This document shows, piece after piece, positions 27,601 through 60,893 of a stretch of DNA of 64,000 nucleotides (positions are counted from its first letter, which is position 1; each line of letters starts with the position of its first letter). The translations under genes were made by a program, and so were the position numbers. The DNA is from Lepisosteus oculatus (lineage: Eukaryota; Chordata; Actinopteri; Semionotiformes; Lepisosteidae): contig NC_090711.1 in NCBI RefSeq assembly GCF_040954835.1, positions 6,083,501 to 6,147,500 on the forward strand, given 5' to 3'. The notes below the pieces were generated by a model. The model was not told the DNA's origin and did no database searches. It was given only the letters and a program-made list of their open reading frames with translations.

Positions 27601-50253
<22,653 letters not shown>

Positions 50254-52399: not shown

Positions 52400-52807
52400 T
52401 TTTTCTTGTTTAACGAAACTGAAAGCATGGTGATTGATCGCGGAAGTTTTCAAGACTTGATCAGACTAGATTTACGTGAAAAGAGAAGCCCACCACCAAC
52501 AGTAAATGACGGGGTACGAAATTTGAGCTTAGGGGTTGAATTCAGTTGCATGCCATGGCACAAAGTCCACTTCATTGCACGTCCGGCCAGAGACACGCCG
52601 ACTTTAATTTTAAAGAATTTAAGTAAGAATAAACTCAGTGATATTTCCGAGCGTCGCCCAAAACTGCATTTCGGGGACCGTCGAGGAATAAAGGGAGTGC
52701 ATGTCTGAAACGCGGTAGATGCAATCGCAGTTTGACCATGAGAAACTTCTGTTGCTGTGGTTGCCTGACAAATGGGTTTCAAAAATCTGAGGATCATCCA
52801 GTAGACA
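52400..52807 (+). promoter_or_regulatory. Promoter / 5' leader of the cytokine-like gene, with IRF-E/ISRE-type motif
   Basis: At 52,414-52,425 the sequence GAAACTGAAAGC fits the IRF-element consensus G(A)AAA(G/C)(T/C)GAAA(G/C)(T/C) at every position. It lies about 390 bp upstream of the proposed start codon. CpGs are frequent at 52,430-52,720. The leader contains two upstream ORFs: 52,738-52,821, which overlaps the start codon out of frame, and 52,772-52,804, which ends 3 bases before it. The transcription start is not defined, so which of these lie in the mRNA is inference. Confidence 0.45.
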
Positions 52808-55800
52808 ATGATAAATGGTAGGTAAGAGATCGCTTTTGACAACGCTTCTTTATCGAACTGCGCATATCTGTGTCGTGTGTGTGAGTGATTAGGGTCTAAT
52901 GCGGTTTGTGACACGAACTCGGTAAACGGATATAGATAAACGGGTTTAAAGGTGTTCACATTAGTCACGGGTTTGTAATATTGCATTCTGGAACCCAGTG
53001 AATGAGTACCAGTTCAAAAGTACAGTAATTCCCACAAATGCTTTTTGAAGTACGTTTTCCCCGTTTAAGGTTTCATAGTTTGACTTGACTACTGGATAGC
53101 TCTTTGCCACTGCTTAATGAATATATATATATACTTAATATGAATATTTCCAAACACACTGTCGAAGACAGCTGTTCATTAAGCCAGACGTTCACAAGCT
53201 CGGACAAAACGCTTCTTTACGGCTGTAAGAAGTTTCAATAGTAATAAGAGAAGAGACAGTTGAGTTTGTTAATCTTATTTCTCTTTTTTAGTGTGTCTCC
53301 AGGACTCTGATTTGTATTTTAGTGGTAACGGTATTGTTTTCGGACATCTCAAACAGTAGACAGAGGTGCAACTATCAAGAGATCCTCATCGCTTACAAAG
53401 AACTAATCCTCACAGAACTCCAAAGCCTGGTATGTACTTGTTATGTATGTGTTTGTAATGAAACAGGAACTATTGCAAAATGAGGAGCTCAATAAATCAA
53501 AAAAGCTTTCGTGTAGTGTCCAACTACAAGGTTTAATGGTTAAAATAATTTTACAGAATATACTGTAGGTACACGTCATTGTGGACAGAAGTCCCTCTTC
53601 GGGTGATGATACTATTTAACTTCATCTTTATATATGTTTGAGTGTGTGTTGGATTTATACTGTATGTGGGTATGTTGTCTGTGCATTCATGATGTTATTT
53701 GCCTGACTTTTACGGGAGTTATTTTAAAATACTAAAAGGCAACAGCCTTTCTCAATGCGAAACATTGTCAGAGTCAGTGAGTTACTGCCCTCTTGTGGTT
53801 TGGGAGATCTTGTAGCGATTCAACCTAAATTAATTGCTGTTGTGGACTGATCAATATTCTTCTTTTTTAGAACCTCACAGGTCCTTATGACACATCAAGT
53901 GAAAATAAAAATTTAAGAGACCATTGCCCCTCTGGAAAGGTATGATTTAGAGTTTAGCCATTTTAGTTCCACTAATGTAACTTGTGTGTACTTTACCTGA
54001 TGTGTGTATGTCCTGTACAGTATACATGTATACTGTATGTGTCTGGTATTCTGGTATAGTATGTAAAACTCCAAGGATCTTTAAATGTATATATACACTA
54101 GACAAAATCTAAATCACCTTCGTTCATGCTGAGAGCATGGATGATAGTGATTACTCGGACAAAGCTCAGTTGTATGTTTTGCCTTTCTTGCATGACTTAA
54201 AATCAAGAGTATAATTTGTGAATGGAGATTTGTAAAGATTCATAATACACTACTGCTATCAATCGTAACTCAAATTAAATTCCAAATTCTATTAGACTGA
54301 CAACTGTAGGAAGTTACATGACTTACGCTAACTGTATTGTTATCTTAGAAAAACAATTAACAAATCTATTTAATTAAAATGTAAACAACAGAATCTAGAC
54401 TGGTCTATTGTGTATTTGCAGTACCTAGTACTCTATTAAAGTTAATTAATGCATATCGTTATAGTTACAGTATGTAATATTCTCGTATATTTTTTAGAAC
54501 AGGAGGAAAACAAAGAATACAGAAAAAAATAAATCTCAGAATTCCCAAGGGAGGCTGTATACACTATCTTAAAATACATGAGTGAACATAATTATTTCTG
54601 TAGGGCACCGGTTTCTATCCGTAGAGTATAAGAACAATAGAAGACAGTATTCTGAGCAATATAACTCAGTTTTTAATTCCTTTTCCAAGATGTCACATCC
54701 TAGTCCTGTTTTGCATGCACCATGACAAGTAGAACAATGTTCTATGAAGCCACAGTAAGCCCGTTGTTGAACAATTGTCAGGAAAAGTCAGTAAGTTTTA
54801 ATTTCTAAGCATATTGTCACATAAAATGCATTGATTCTGTAACAAAAACCTTTATTCAGATCAGGAGGCAGGTCAGAAAGAAAACAGTTCAATACCATTC
54901 TCCCTTACAAGAGAGGTATTCAGCACCAAGGACAGCACACGGCAGATTTATTTTTTTCGTGTTTCAGTGCCATTGGGGTCAAGGGAATTGTGAAAGGTGT
55001 TGGTCTTATGTCAGTCAAACCACTAGGAGTTCTCAAAAAAAACTAGTCCATCAAGTTACTCATTGAGCTAAGCATGGGGATTTCTGATAGTCAGAGGAGA
55101 AATTATAAGAGAAAACGTGGAGAACAATTTCACGATTTTCAAGCAGTAAGTTGTATACTGCCACCCCATAATCAGTTTTTTCATGGCTAGGCAACAGTGC
55201 ATGATGATACAGCAGAGTATAATTTGTGCTGGAACTGAGTACTTTTCATTTGAAGATTGATGATTGGGCTGTAAATCTTTTGTAAATATGATACTCTATA
55301 GGTTTAGAGAAACATGAAGTTAATTAAAAGGGAAGTTTTTTTTTCATTATGCTTTTGGACACTTACGAGGAAGCATGTCTTGGAATAGGATGCAAAGTCT
55401 GAATTATCTGCTAAATAGCCTTCTAGCTTAATATCTGAATTCAACTAATTGCTCTGCCAGTGCTTTGTTTCAAACCCTGAAATTTTATTTTGATTATTTT
55501 AGGTACACCATATCCTGCAGTCTATCTACAATATGACACAGTTTTTTAAATGTCAAGTCAAAGGTAAAGGATCAAATAACCTAGGTAACCCTGTGAAAAG
55601 AATGGAAATGGTTATTAAACAAAACTGCAATTATGCTGACCTGGTAAGTTACTGTGATATAACACTTTAGAAGAGGGCTTAAGTCCAGCAGATATTATGA
55701 GTTTATTATAATCATCAACAGACTTATAAGTTTATTTTAATCATCAACAGACTTCAGGAAAAGAATTTAAGTAACTCACTTAAGGCTTATTCTTATTGAT

Positions 55801-56270
55801 TAAGGAATCAATTTGGAGATTTTAATCCTCATGTACAGTAGGTTCTGAAACTGCTGGTGATTTCAGAAGGAACAAAAGTCTGTGATAATGAATTTCTGCT
55901 CAGGGATGTGAAGATAGAAGTGAATCTAGGGACTGTAGTGAAAAAGAGAGAACAATATTCTCCTTTTCCCCAACATCATTGTTCGCTGTGCTTCCACAGT
56001 TTTGAATAGCGCATGTACACAACACAAATTCTCACCTGGTGATGCTTCAAAAGAAATGATTTTTTTCTCCAAGAGGTTAACAAGGAATATATGCTTTGGT
56101 ATTTTGTTTTTCAGATAAGAAGATCAGAAGGTGACCCAGTATGCACAAATAGTAAAGGTTTAGGAGGGAAAAGAAGGAAAAAAAAGAAAAAGAAGATTAT
56201 CGAGGCCTTAATATTGTGTTGGAAGAAGTTACAAATCATGTATTCTCCAAAACCAAAAAGAAAGACATAA
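52808..56270 (+). CDS. Short-chain four-helix cytokine-like secreted protein, IL-7/TSLP group, complete, 5 coding exons
   Basis: Exons: 52,808-52,821; 53,303-53,429; 53,871-53,939; 55,503-55,643; 56,115-56,270 (168 aa). Intron 1 is phase 2, the rest phase 0; all are GT-AG. Residues 1-22 form a signal peptide with hydrophobic core TLICILVVTVLF. The mature part has six cysteines (27, 66, 87, 112, 127, 152) and N-glycosylation sites at Asn48 and Asn80. Residues 28-47 suit helix A. IL-7-like features are FFKCQVKGKG at 84-93 and a final ALILCWKKL helix at 148-156, with C-W as in human IL-7. TSLP-like features are a Cys-aromatic-acidic/amide start (CNYQE) and a Lys/Arg tract (136-144) just before helix D. 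Length fits IL-7 (177) and TSLP (159). The tiny first exon is the least certain part. A cytokine is likely; which member is open. Confidence 0.75.
55700..55755 (+). repeat. Short tandem duplication, 29-bp period, two copies
   Basis: Two adjacent copies of 'agtttattataatcatcaac' plus 'agactt', the second with one change, lie in the last intron of the cytokine-like gene, 57 bp past its fourth exon. Confidence 0.75.
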
Positions 56271-56340
56271 ACTAGGAGGAATACACACTAAAGGAAAGAA
56301 CTGTTAAGGGATTTGTAAATAATCAATAAAGATTTTAGCA
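56271..56340 (+). other. Short 3' UTR and AATAAA signal of the cytokine-like gene
   Basis: AATAAA occurs at 56,325-56,330, only 55 bases after the stop codon, so the shortest 3' UTR would be under 90 bases. It lacks the ATTTA instability motifs usual in cytokine messages; such motifs appear only further downstream (for example around 56,530), in any longer form. Confidence 0.5.
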
Positions 56341-58330: not shown

Positions 58331-58923
58331 GTGACTTCATTATATATTGACTAAATATATATTAGGCCCTCAAAGGTAACGTTTTGCTGGCTAGAAAATT
58401 ACGGTACAGTGCCAAGAAATCGTATTGTTGAAGTCGCAGTTAATTAGAAAGATTTTTTTAAAACGAAACGTTTCAACACAGTTTTTTTTTCGTAATTTTA
58501 TACTTGCATCTTTGTGCTAAAGGAATTATACGACTATGGGAAAACATCTTTGTTTTTCTAAGTTGGGGTTAGTGATTGTGACTGATAGTATAGATCATTC
58601 TTAGCACTTTTTAATGTAAAATACCGGGTAAACTGATCTTGACATTTCATTCTCACGCTGTCTGGAGCCACAAGAACGACTTAATTTAAAAGTGAATTGT
58701 CGTTTTTTTTTCCATTGTAGATAAGTTGACTATTTTAGGTGCGAATTGTAGTTGCAGAAGCCTTGTCGAGTATTATGGAGGAGCCATACCTAGGTCCTTT
58801 TGTTTCAGAAATGTCACAATGTTTTGCTTTATTAAAACCTTAGCTCCTAGGTTATTTTATTTGATGTCTTGCTGTGGTCCATGTAAGTGTTTAATTGTCA
58901 GTTTTGTGCTCTTTCTAGTAGAT

Positions 58924-60893
58924 ATGGCCAGCATGGACATGGATCCTGAACTGGCCTGCAGTCTGTTTGAGGAGGGGGCCACACTGGTTTTGTTGGGGGT
59001 GCCCGAGGGGTCGGAGCTGGGGATCGATTACAAGACCTGGCAGGTGGGTCCCAGGTTCCGAGGGGTCAAGATGATCCCACCGGGCCTGCACTTCCTGCAC
59101 TACAGCGCTTCCAACAAGCCGGAGCAAGGAGGGGAGACTGGGCCTCGGACTGGGGTCTTCCTCTCTCTCAAAGCCCGAGACGTCCTGCTGGCTCACTGGG
59201 ACAGCCAGCAAGAGGACCTGGACTTCTCCGCCTCCCAGAACGAGGAGGAAGTGGCCCGGGTGCGGGCTGGGCTGCGCGATCTGGACCGCTTTCTGGGACC
59301 GTACCCCTACGACATGCTTCGGAAGTGGGTCTCCCTGACGGACCGCGTCACCCAGGAGGTTGCACAACGCCTGCAGCCCCTGAATGGCAAGATCTGTGCC
59401 TTCAGCGATGTGGTACCGGAACTGTCGTTGCCTCACACGGAAGATCGGGTCCAGCAGAACCTCCCACGGTACGACATCCAGTGCCAGAGCATGCAGGAGG
59501 GTTTGGACAGGCTGCCTAAGATGAAGCTGAGAGCCGGCACAGAGCTGCGCTTCTCAGAGATCCCCAAACAGACCTACCCTGAGGGGGCCACACCTGCCCA
59601 AATCACCCAGTACAGTATGGACCTCAGTTATGCCCTCAACAGCTTACTAGAACGCTACTACAAAGACGAGCCACTGCAAGTGCTGGGTGAGTTCTGGACT
59701 GAAAAAACACACTCTGACACAATTCAAAGCCTTTACAGTTCCTTGCATTGATTGATGCTATAAAATGCCAGCCTTTTTTATTTTCTGAACACATACAGTA
59801 AATCAGGAGATGACTACTAGCCTGTGTAGTTGAATGCCATTCATTTCAGTGTAATTCTAACAAACTTCAGTTTTCAGGATTCCAATAAGCTTTTGCTTTT
59901 GATGCAGTTTGTAAGTAAATGACCTTTCCTCTCCTCCTTCTCTCTTTTTTTTTTTTTTCTGTTTTGCTGTCCAGGGGAGTTGCAGTTTGCATTTGTGTGT
60001 TTCCTGATTGGGAATGTGTATGAGAGCTTTGAGCACTGGAAATGTCTTCTGAACCTGCTATGCCGCTCTGAAGAGGCTATACTCAACCACCGGAACCTGT
60101 ACCTCCACCTCATCCCTGTTCTCTACCACCAGCTGGGAGAGATTCCCCCCGATTTCTTTGTAGACATCGTATCCAAAGACAACTTTCTCACTTCCACCTT
60201 GCAGGTAGGTTGTTTGGTTCTCTTCACAAAGCTGGTCTTGCTGCCTCAGTGCTGTGCAGCGTAGGAAGACTCCAAATCCAGAATATGAATAGTAAAAGAA
60301 GGGTTAAAGTCCTGCGTGATCTAGCGCTTCATTTAGGCCATAATCGGGGCTCTTATAGATTTTCATTATCTAAGCTGTTTGTCACCCCAAGTTTTACCAT
60401 GGTAAGTTGTCTTCTCTTCCGAGTTTTTTTTTTCTGTTGAAAATTGAGATCGTGTTTGATCTACCAGTTTATCTGGGGACTCACAGTATCTGAGAGTTAT
60501 ACATAAAAGAGTAGCTAGGGAAGAGTACAGAAAGAAGCTTAGTCAGACGTTTTTCATTTAAAACAAAATCATGTTCTTCTTTTGTTTTTTGCCGTACACC
60601 AGCCAGGAGAATACGAGGGTGGTTATAACACCAGCCAGGAGAATACGAGGGTGGTAATAAACGAGAGGTGGTCATGTGGCCCATCTGCATGTTCTGCACT
60701 GATCTCTGATTTTACTCTTGCCCAGGAGTTCTTTTTGTTCACGAGTGGGCCTGGTGTGGACAGTGGTCTTCGGAAACGGGCTGAAAAGTTCAAAGTCTAC
60801 CTGACCAAGAAGTTCCGGTGGGATTTTGAGATAGACCCCGAGGAATGTGCCCCTGTGGTTGTAGAGCTGCCAGAAGGAGTGGCTCCAGAATAA
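58924..60893 (+). CDS. AAR2: AAR2 splicing factor homologue (U5 snRNP assembly factor), complete, 3 coding exons
   Basis: AAR2 binds PRPF8 in a cytoplasmic U5 snRNP precursor and is exchanged for BRR2 during nuclear maturation. Coding exons: 58,924-59,686; 59,975-60,204; 60,726-60,893. They join in frame to 386 aa (human 384). The N-terminal domain reads [19 protein letters not shown], then [22 protein letters not shown] and [10 protein letters not shown]. The helical C-terminal part includes [20 protein letters not shown] and [15 protein letters not shown], ending [24 protein letters not shown], all strongly like human. ATG 58,924 is preceded by a splice acceptor ending at 58,920, so the longer open frame to the left is intron. 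The first coding exon is much richer in G+C than its surroundings. Very secure. Confidence 0.97.
60599..60658 (+). repeat. Tandem duplication, 32-bp period, in AAR2 intron
   Basis: Two copies of 'ccagccaggagaatacgagg' followed by 'gtggt' lie in tandem 70 bp upstream of the last AAR2 exon. Near-identity of the copies implies a recent duplication. Confidence 0.8.

Follow-up and report, generated by a model that had tools for sequence, protein, structure and literature searches.

The 64,000-nucleotide stretch of Lepisosteus oculatus DNA analyzed here (NC_090711.1, positions 6,083,501 to 6,147,500; the window) contains, between PRPF6 and AAR2, a five-exon gene that its sequence confirms as a real-looking gene for a secreted protein of the IL-7/TSLP type. 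We consider it probable that this window gene is functional, that it encodes a secreted short-chain four-helix cytokine, and that it joins the IL-7/TSLP family as its third member, being most likely IL7's ohnologue on the 20q side. Two links carry this reading. IL7 and a TSLP-like gene occupy their usual loci elsewhere in the same genome, and the window gene is therefore a third family member; its IL7-like exons, together with paralogous markers on its chromosome (C16) and that of IL7 (C6), lead us to take it as the 20q-side ohnologue of IL7.

The gene model has GT-AG at every intron, intron phases of 2, 0, 0 and 0, and an open frame of 168 residues, with mature cysteines at positions 27, 66, 87, 112, 127 and 152 and an extra one (Cys9) inside the signal peptide. 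Five phase-compatible exons, a secreted 168-residue product and six mature cysteines had been proposed in a sequence-only reading of this DNA, and all were found, as follows (here and below, a slash in a motif marks an exon boundary).

52808..52821, + strand: coding exon 1, 14 nt, MING and a split Arg codon; the likeliest start, though uncertain, with a donor score (4.79) that is the best of ten options and an A at -3 of the ATG.
53303..53429, + strand: exon 2, 127 nt, with the signal peptide, Cys27 and proposed helix A (assigned by comparison with IL-7 and TSLP); acceptor score 5.26.
53871..53939, + strand: exon 3, 69 nt, with the AB loop and, as fifth residue from its end, Cys66 (CPSGK/).
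55503..55643, + strand: exon 4, 141 nt, with proposed helices B and C, Cys87 and Cys112.
56115..56270, + strand: exon 5, 156 nt with the stop, containing the CD loop, Cys127, KRRKKKKKK (residues 136-144) and proposed helix D with Cys152-Trp.
56325..56330, + strand: poly-A signal AATAAA, beginning 55 bases beyond the stop.

Ranked by an approximate splice matrix among the GT/AG sites in the window, the four donors fall within percentiles 98.2-99.7 and the four acceptors within percentiles 92.2-98.3. A search for five-exon models with 150 residues or more, with splice cut-offs taken post hoc from the weakest sites of the window gene, returned two models in the region, identical but for exon 1; in the controls, none of 300 dinucleotide shuffles gave any model, and one of 52 half-overlapping window stretches (both strands) did, namely the one bearing AAR2. 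The predicted signal peptide has a hydrophobic core near the N-terminus (judged by hydrophobicity, mean 3.48 over 10 residues), and the C-terminus is basic by eye, with no membrane anchor seen. The mature protein would carry 30 Lys and Arg residues against 11 Asp and Glu, and two N-glycan sites.

The genome examined (1.2 Gb, one species) has an IL7 orthologue at G000:C6:1188845-1191619, 11 kb from ZC2HC1A, with 170 residues and eight mature cysteines; its product passes the Pfam IL7 (PF01415) cut-off (32.5 bits, E 9.5e-8). A TSLP-like gene lies at G000:C3:29891988-29894882, flanked by SLC25A46 and WDR36; its model is incomplete, without an ATG exon and with a short helix C region. We take human IL7 to be tail-to-tail with ZC2HC1A, and the human order to be SLC25A46 - TSLP - WDR36 - CAMK4. 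A displaced IL7 is thus ruled out as the identity of the window gene, given that IL7 sits on C6 beside ZC2HC1A, and so is a displaced TSLP, given that the TSLP-like gene occupies the TSLP place on C3. The location, earlier remarked on as odd in light of mammalian IL7 and TSLP, does differ from theirs, but it holds no displaced copy; the gene there is a third one, and its chromosome is paralogous to that of IL7.

Several profile and whole-genome searches led no further. Pfam TSLP (PF15216) matched neither the window protein nor the TSLP-like gene at the TSLP locus. A genome-wide scan with Pfam IL7 gave no match although IL7 is present, and controls were equally silent; in genome-wide searches with human IL-7 and human TSLP the best E values were 0.29 and 6.4, neither at the genes found later. 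Searched against its own genome, the window protein matched itself alone, and such searches miss IL7, so further relatives are possible. Human IL7R and CRLF2 queries gave no receptor gene match in the genome and were uninformative, and nothing was gained from viral-contig, genome-contig and Rfam searches. Two candidate loci were set aside along the way: 200 kb beside STMN2/HEY1 on C10, read for IL7, gave weak matches only, the best of them broken by stops, and a weak match to window helix A at C6 offset 35017 (E 0.036) was taken as chance.

Gene structure and locus lean toward IL7. Exons 3 to 5 measure 69, 141 and 156 nt in the window gene and 75, 132 and 150 nt in the IL7 of this genome, and in both the last cysteine of exon 3 is fifth from the exon end (CPSGK/ and CEEDN/, respectively). 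The last exon boundary falls after the helix-C cysteine in the window gene (NCNYADL/) and in IL7 (GCSCHRRK/), whereas in the TSLP-like gene it falls before that cysteine (GFQ/QHCPEF). The window gene therefore has the IL7-type exon layout, that is, a short exon 3, helices B and C in one exon, and a boundary after the helix-C cysteine; it differs from TSLP in its separate exons 3 and 4, its last exon boundary and its locus. A phase-2 first intron, also considered as an IL7 trait, was discarded, because the ATG of the local IL7 is contiguous.

The protein itself is less one-sided. It differs from IL-7 in having no match to Pfam IL7 (at E<=10), which the local IL7 does match, in placing its first cysteine directly before helix A, in its long basic run, in having six mature cysteines rather than the eight of local IL7, and in its locus at PRPF6-AAR2 and not ZC2HC1A. 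Three traits resemble TSLP instead: a helix A motif, C-x-[FYL]-x-x-[IV], a basic run of at least seven residues before helix D (as in human TSLP and the TSLP-like gene here), and W-[KR]-[KR] near the end. The earlier identification of a C-aromatic start as a TSLP trait stands (local profile match to TSLP at helix A, P 0.0011, hhalign probability just 20%), and so does that of a Lys/Arg cluster before helix D, the nine-residue run comparing with a basic cassette at residues 125-131 of human TSLP according to passages of PMC5382266. The TSLP disulphides given there are Cys34-Cys110, Cys69-Cys75 and Cys90-Cys137; by eye, the first and third have matchable positions in the window protein and the second has no counterpart. 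Unlike TSLP, the protein also has no furin motif (R-x-[KR]-R).

The suggested mixture of IL-7 and TSLP hallmarks holds as to family type and TSLP traits, but both cited IL-7 hallmarks proved weak. QVKG follows helix C in human IL-7 (helix 3, residues 73-91), whereas the QVKG of the cited CQVKGKG block follows proposed helix B in the window protein, and the IL7 of this genome has no QVKG; nor is mouse IL-7 known to have it. In favor of this hallmark, one free-end-gap alignment pairs the QVKG blocks, though few of the first 40 IL-7 residues then find a partner, but alignments with charged end gaps leave the blocks of human IL-7 and the window protein unpaired. The terminal C-W-K-K cannot be claimed for IL-7 either, as the TSLP-like gene here ends C-W-K-R-F and IL7 here C-Y-T-R.

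Could the window gene be an offshoot of TSLP? Under this alternative, a duplicate or early branch of TSLP dispersed to PRPF6 and acts through IL-7R-alpha plus a CRLF2-like chain. We find it rather unlikely, because the boundary after helix C is as in IL7 and unlike the TSLP-like gene, because C16 shares paralogous markers with the chromosome of IL7 (the comparison covering C16 and C6), and because the global Z score of the window protein is higher with human IL-7 than with human TSLP. A different short-chain class I cytokine, such as an unfound fish IL-9 or IL-4/13-type gene, seems very unlikely. IL-9 resembles the window protein as a short-chain secreted helical cytokine, and passages of PMC6238376 describe it as the cytokine most closely related to IL-7. 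The sequence similarity of the window protein to the IL-7/TSLP family lies above shuffles and is higher than to other short-chain cytokines. Another parallel is IL-15L, a cytokine paralogue of ancient origin that fish retain and that is a mere pseudogene in rodents and higher primates, as passages of PMC7658486 describe it; IL-15L, however, belongs to the IL-2/15 subfamily and has another locus.

Three points weigh against the reading of the window gene as a functional ohnologue of IL7. Sequence alone does not choose between IL7 and TSLP for the protein: in a tree of nine rows its placement was 54/0, and its top identity to the eight other rows is 20% (human IL-7). Codon usage scores below zero (-15.9 bits under a human table), so the case for a real gene has to be made from its splicing, open frames, relatives and synteny. 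Finally, the first coding exon is uncertain. The previously proposed 14-base exon is the best-scoring start, but ten formal options exist, and two others use the next best donor (starts 52738-52817 and 52815-52817); the mature protein is identical in these three, the ones with good donors. The alternatives are as follows.

52738..52817, + strand: alternative coding exon 1, with ATG at 52738, donor ATG/GTAGGT and the same acceptor as the main model.
52815..52817, + strand: alternative minimal coding exon 1, the ATG alone, spliced to 53292 (MCVSRTLIC...).
53292..53302, + strand: possible 5' extension of exon 2 by an alternative acceptor (CVS; score 4.30 against 5.26 for 53303).

The interval 52738-52821 thus offers a pair of overlapping ATGs and a pair of donors separated by four bases; with donor 52822 in use, the upstream ATG would make a short upstream frame ending at 52821. 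The codon-usage score and the ambiguous first exon would both fit a chance model or a decayed relic rather than a working gene. We regard this as highly improbable in view of the shuffles, the open frames, the poly-A signal and the eight splice sites, all in the top 8% of GT/AG sites in the window.

The placement of the gene between PRPF6 and AAR2, as first proposed, is borne out by matches to both neighbors, and all three genes lie on the same strand.

27709..50253, + strand: PRPF6, upstream neighbor, ends set by eye; its exon 43568-43801 matches PRPF6 (E 6.6e-33).
58921..59718, + strand: first large coding stretch of AAR2, downstream neighbor; matches AAR2 (E 1.3e-79).

Upstream of PRPF6, window positions 1-27700 showed no recognisable gene by codon score or open reading frames, and no family search was made there. 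Beyond, on C16, TPD52L2-like lies 0.64 Mb and DNAJC5 0.17 Mb from the window gene, both upstream of PRPF6, with STMN3-like and HNF4A about 7 Mb away, while C6 carries IL7, HNF4G 0.70 Mb off and a DNAJC5B-like gene 50 Mb off; TPD52 and STMN2 are on C10. C16 and C6 therefore share two ohnologue pairs, HNF4A/HNF4G and DNAJC5/DNAJC5B-like, the marker names on C16, C6 and C10 each resting on identity to a single human query and not on trees. The label "20q-like" follows the human chromosome band positions that we take these markers to have. Passages of PMC7249433 link gene families on human chromosomes 1, 6, 8 and 20, those of the opioid receptors and stathmins among them, to the first and second rounds of duplication (1R/2R), and passages of PMC6585022 place STMN2 (8q21.13) and STMN3 (20q13.3) in a 1/2/8/20 paralogon but argue for segmental duplications over 2R.

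This setting also bears on a further alternative, in which a dispersed duplication within one lineage placed a copy of IL7 on a 20q-like chromosome by chance and the copy, now the window gene, diverged fast. Cytokines do evolve fast and one species was examined; yet the top identity of 20% in the tree, the retained introns (hence no retrocopy) and the position within a block of TPD52L2-like, DNAJC5 and PRPF6 make such a copy unlikely.

Some further observations concern the genome at large. A third HNF4 locus (HNF4B-like; G000:C20:10125672-10132225) may mark a further paralogon arm in which to seek more family members. At least four stathmin loci and at least three HNF4 loci are present, which suggests no teleost duplication. 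Dozens of frames of about 110 residues on C283, C304, C326, C498, C627 and others resemble part of ZC2HC1A (43-47% identity) and are probably a repeat family.

How might an ohnologue of IL7 have arisen and acted? We postulate that duplication of an ancestral chromosome with IL7 on it, early in vertebrate history and perhaps in the second round, yielded two cytokine genes, of which the window copy would have been retained on a 20q-like chromosome and lost, or left undescribed, elsewhere. The protein would be secreted, glycosylated at N48 and N80, and folded as a predicted A-B-C-D bundle, for or against which amphipathicity by itself did not decide. In an exon-anchored alignment, and with IL-7 disulphides paired as we take them to be, Cys27-Cys112 and Cys66-Cys152 may pair as in IL-7, whereas Cys87-Cys127 may pair like TSLP Cys90-Cys137. 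Members of the IL-7/TSLP family signal via IL-7R-alpha, with gamma-c or TSLPR, to STAT5, and the same is therefore expected of the window protein: its receptor could combine an IL-7R-alpha-type chain with gamma-c or a CRLF2-like chain, and binding would trigger JAK-STAT5 signaling in lymphoid cells. Perhaps the basic CD loop holds the protein on heparan sulphate near its source.

The sequence-only reading knew of no family member beside PRPF6/AAR2, and in the open literature searched, much of it in partial text and with most subscription papers and annotation databases outside its scope, we likewise found no PRPF6/AAR2 cytokine or such an IL-7/TSLP paralogue described; an automatic "IL-7-like" annotation record of the gene may exist. 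TSLP is stated as not found in fish in passages from 2015 and 2020 (PMC4690019, PMC7658486), and parts of an icefish genome paper (PMC7327861) record both IL-7 and TSLP as lost from, or absent in, two species. In contrast to those statements on TSLP in fish, a TSLP-like gene stands here at the place of human TSLP.

With three relatives in one genome, the divergence of IL-7 and TSLP (shared IL-7R-alpha, gamma-c versus TSLPR) becomes testable, and receptor pairing, expression and loss can be compared across IL7, the TSLP-like gene and the window gene. Zebrafish without IL-7 show only moderately decreased thymocytes, according to part of a review (PMC9465101), and a third cytokine may bear on this moderate loss. 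It is tempting to speculate that jawed vertebrates inherited three genes, namely IL7, TSLP and, on a 20q-like chromosome, a 2R sister of IL7 that survives here with TSLP-type traits, a proposition that we hold to be evenly poised. If it is true, the basic CD loop and C-W-[KR] helix D would be ancestral to both lineages, TSLP would go back further than has been supposed and would not be confined to tetrapods, and mammalian IL7 would once have shared part of its role with a cytokine that mammals lost.
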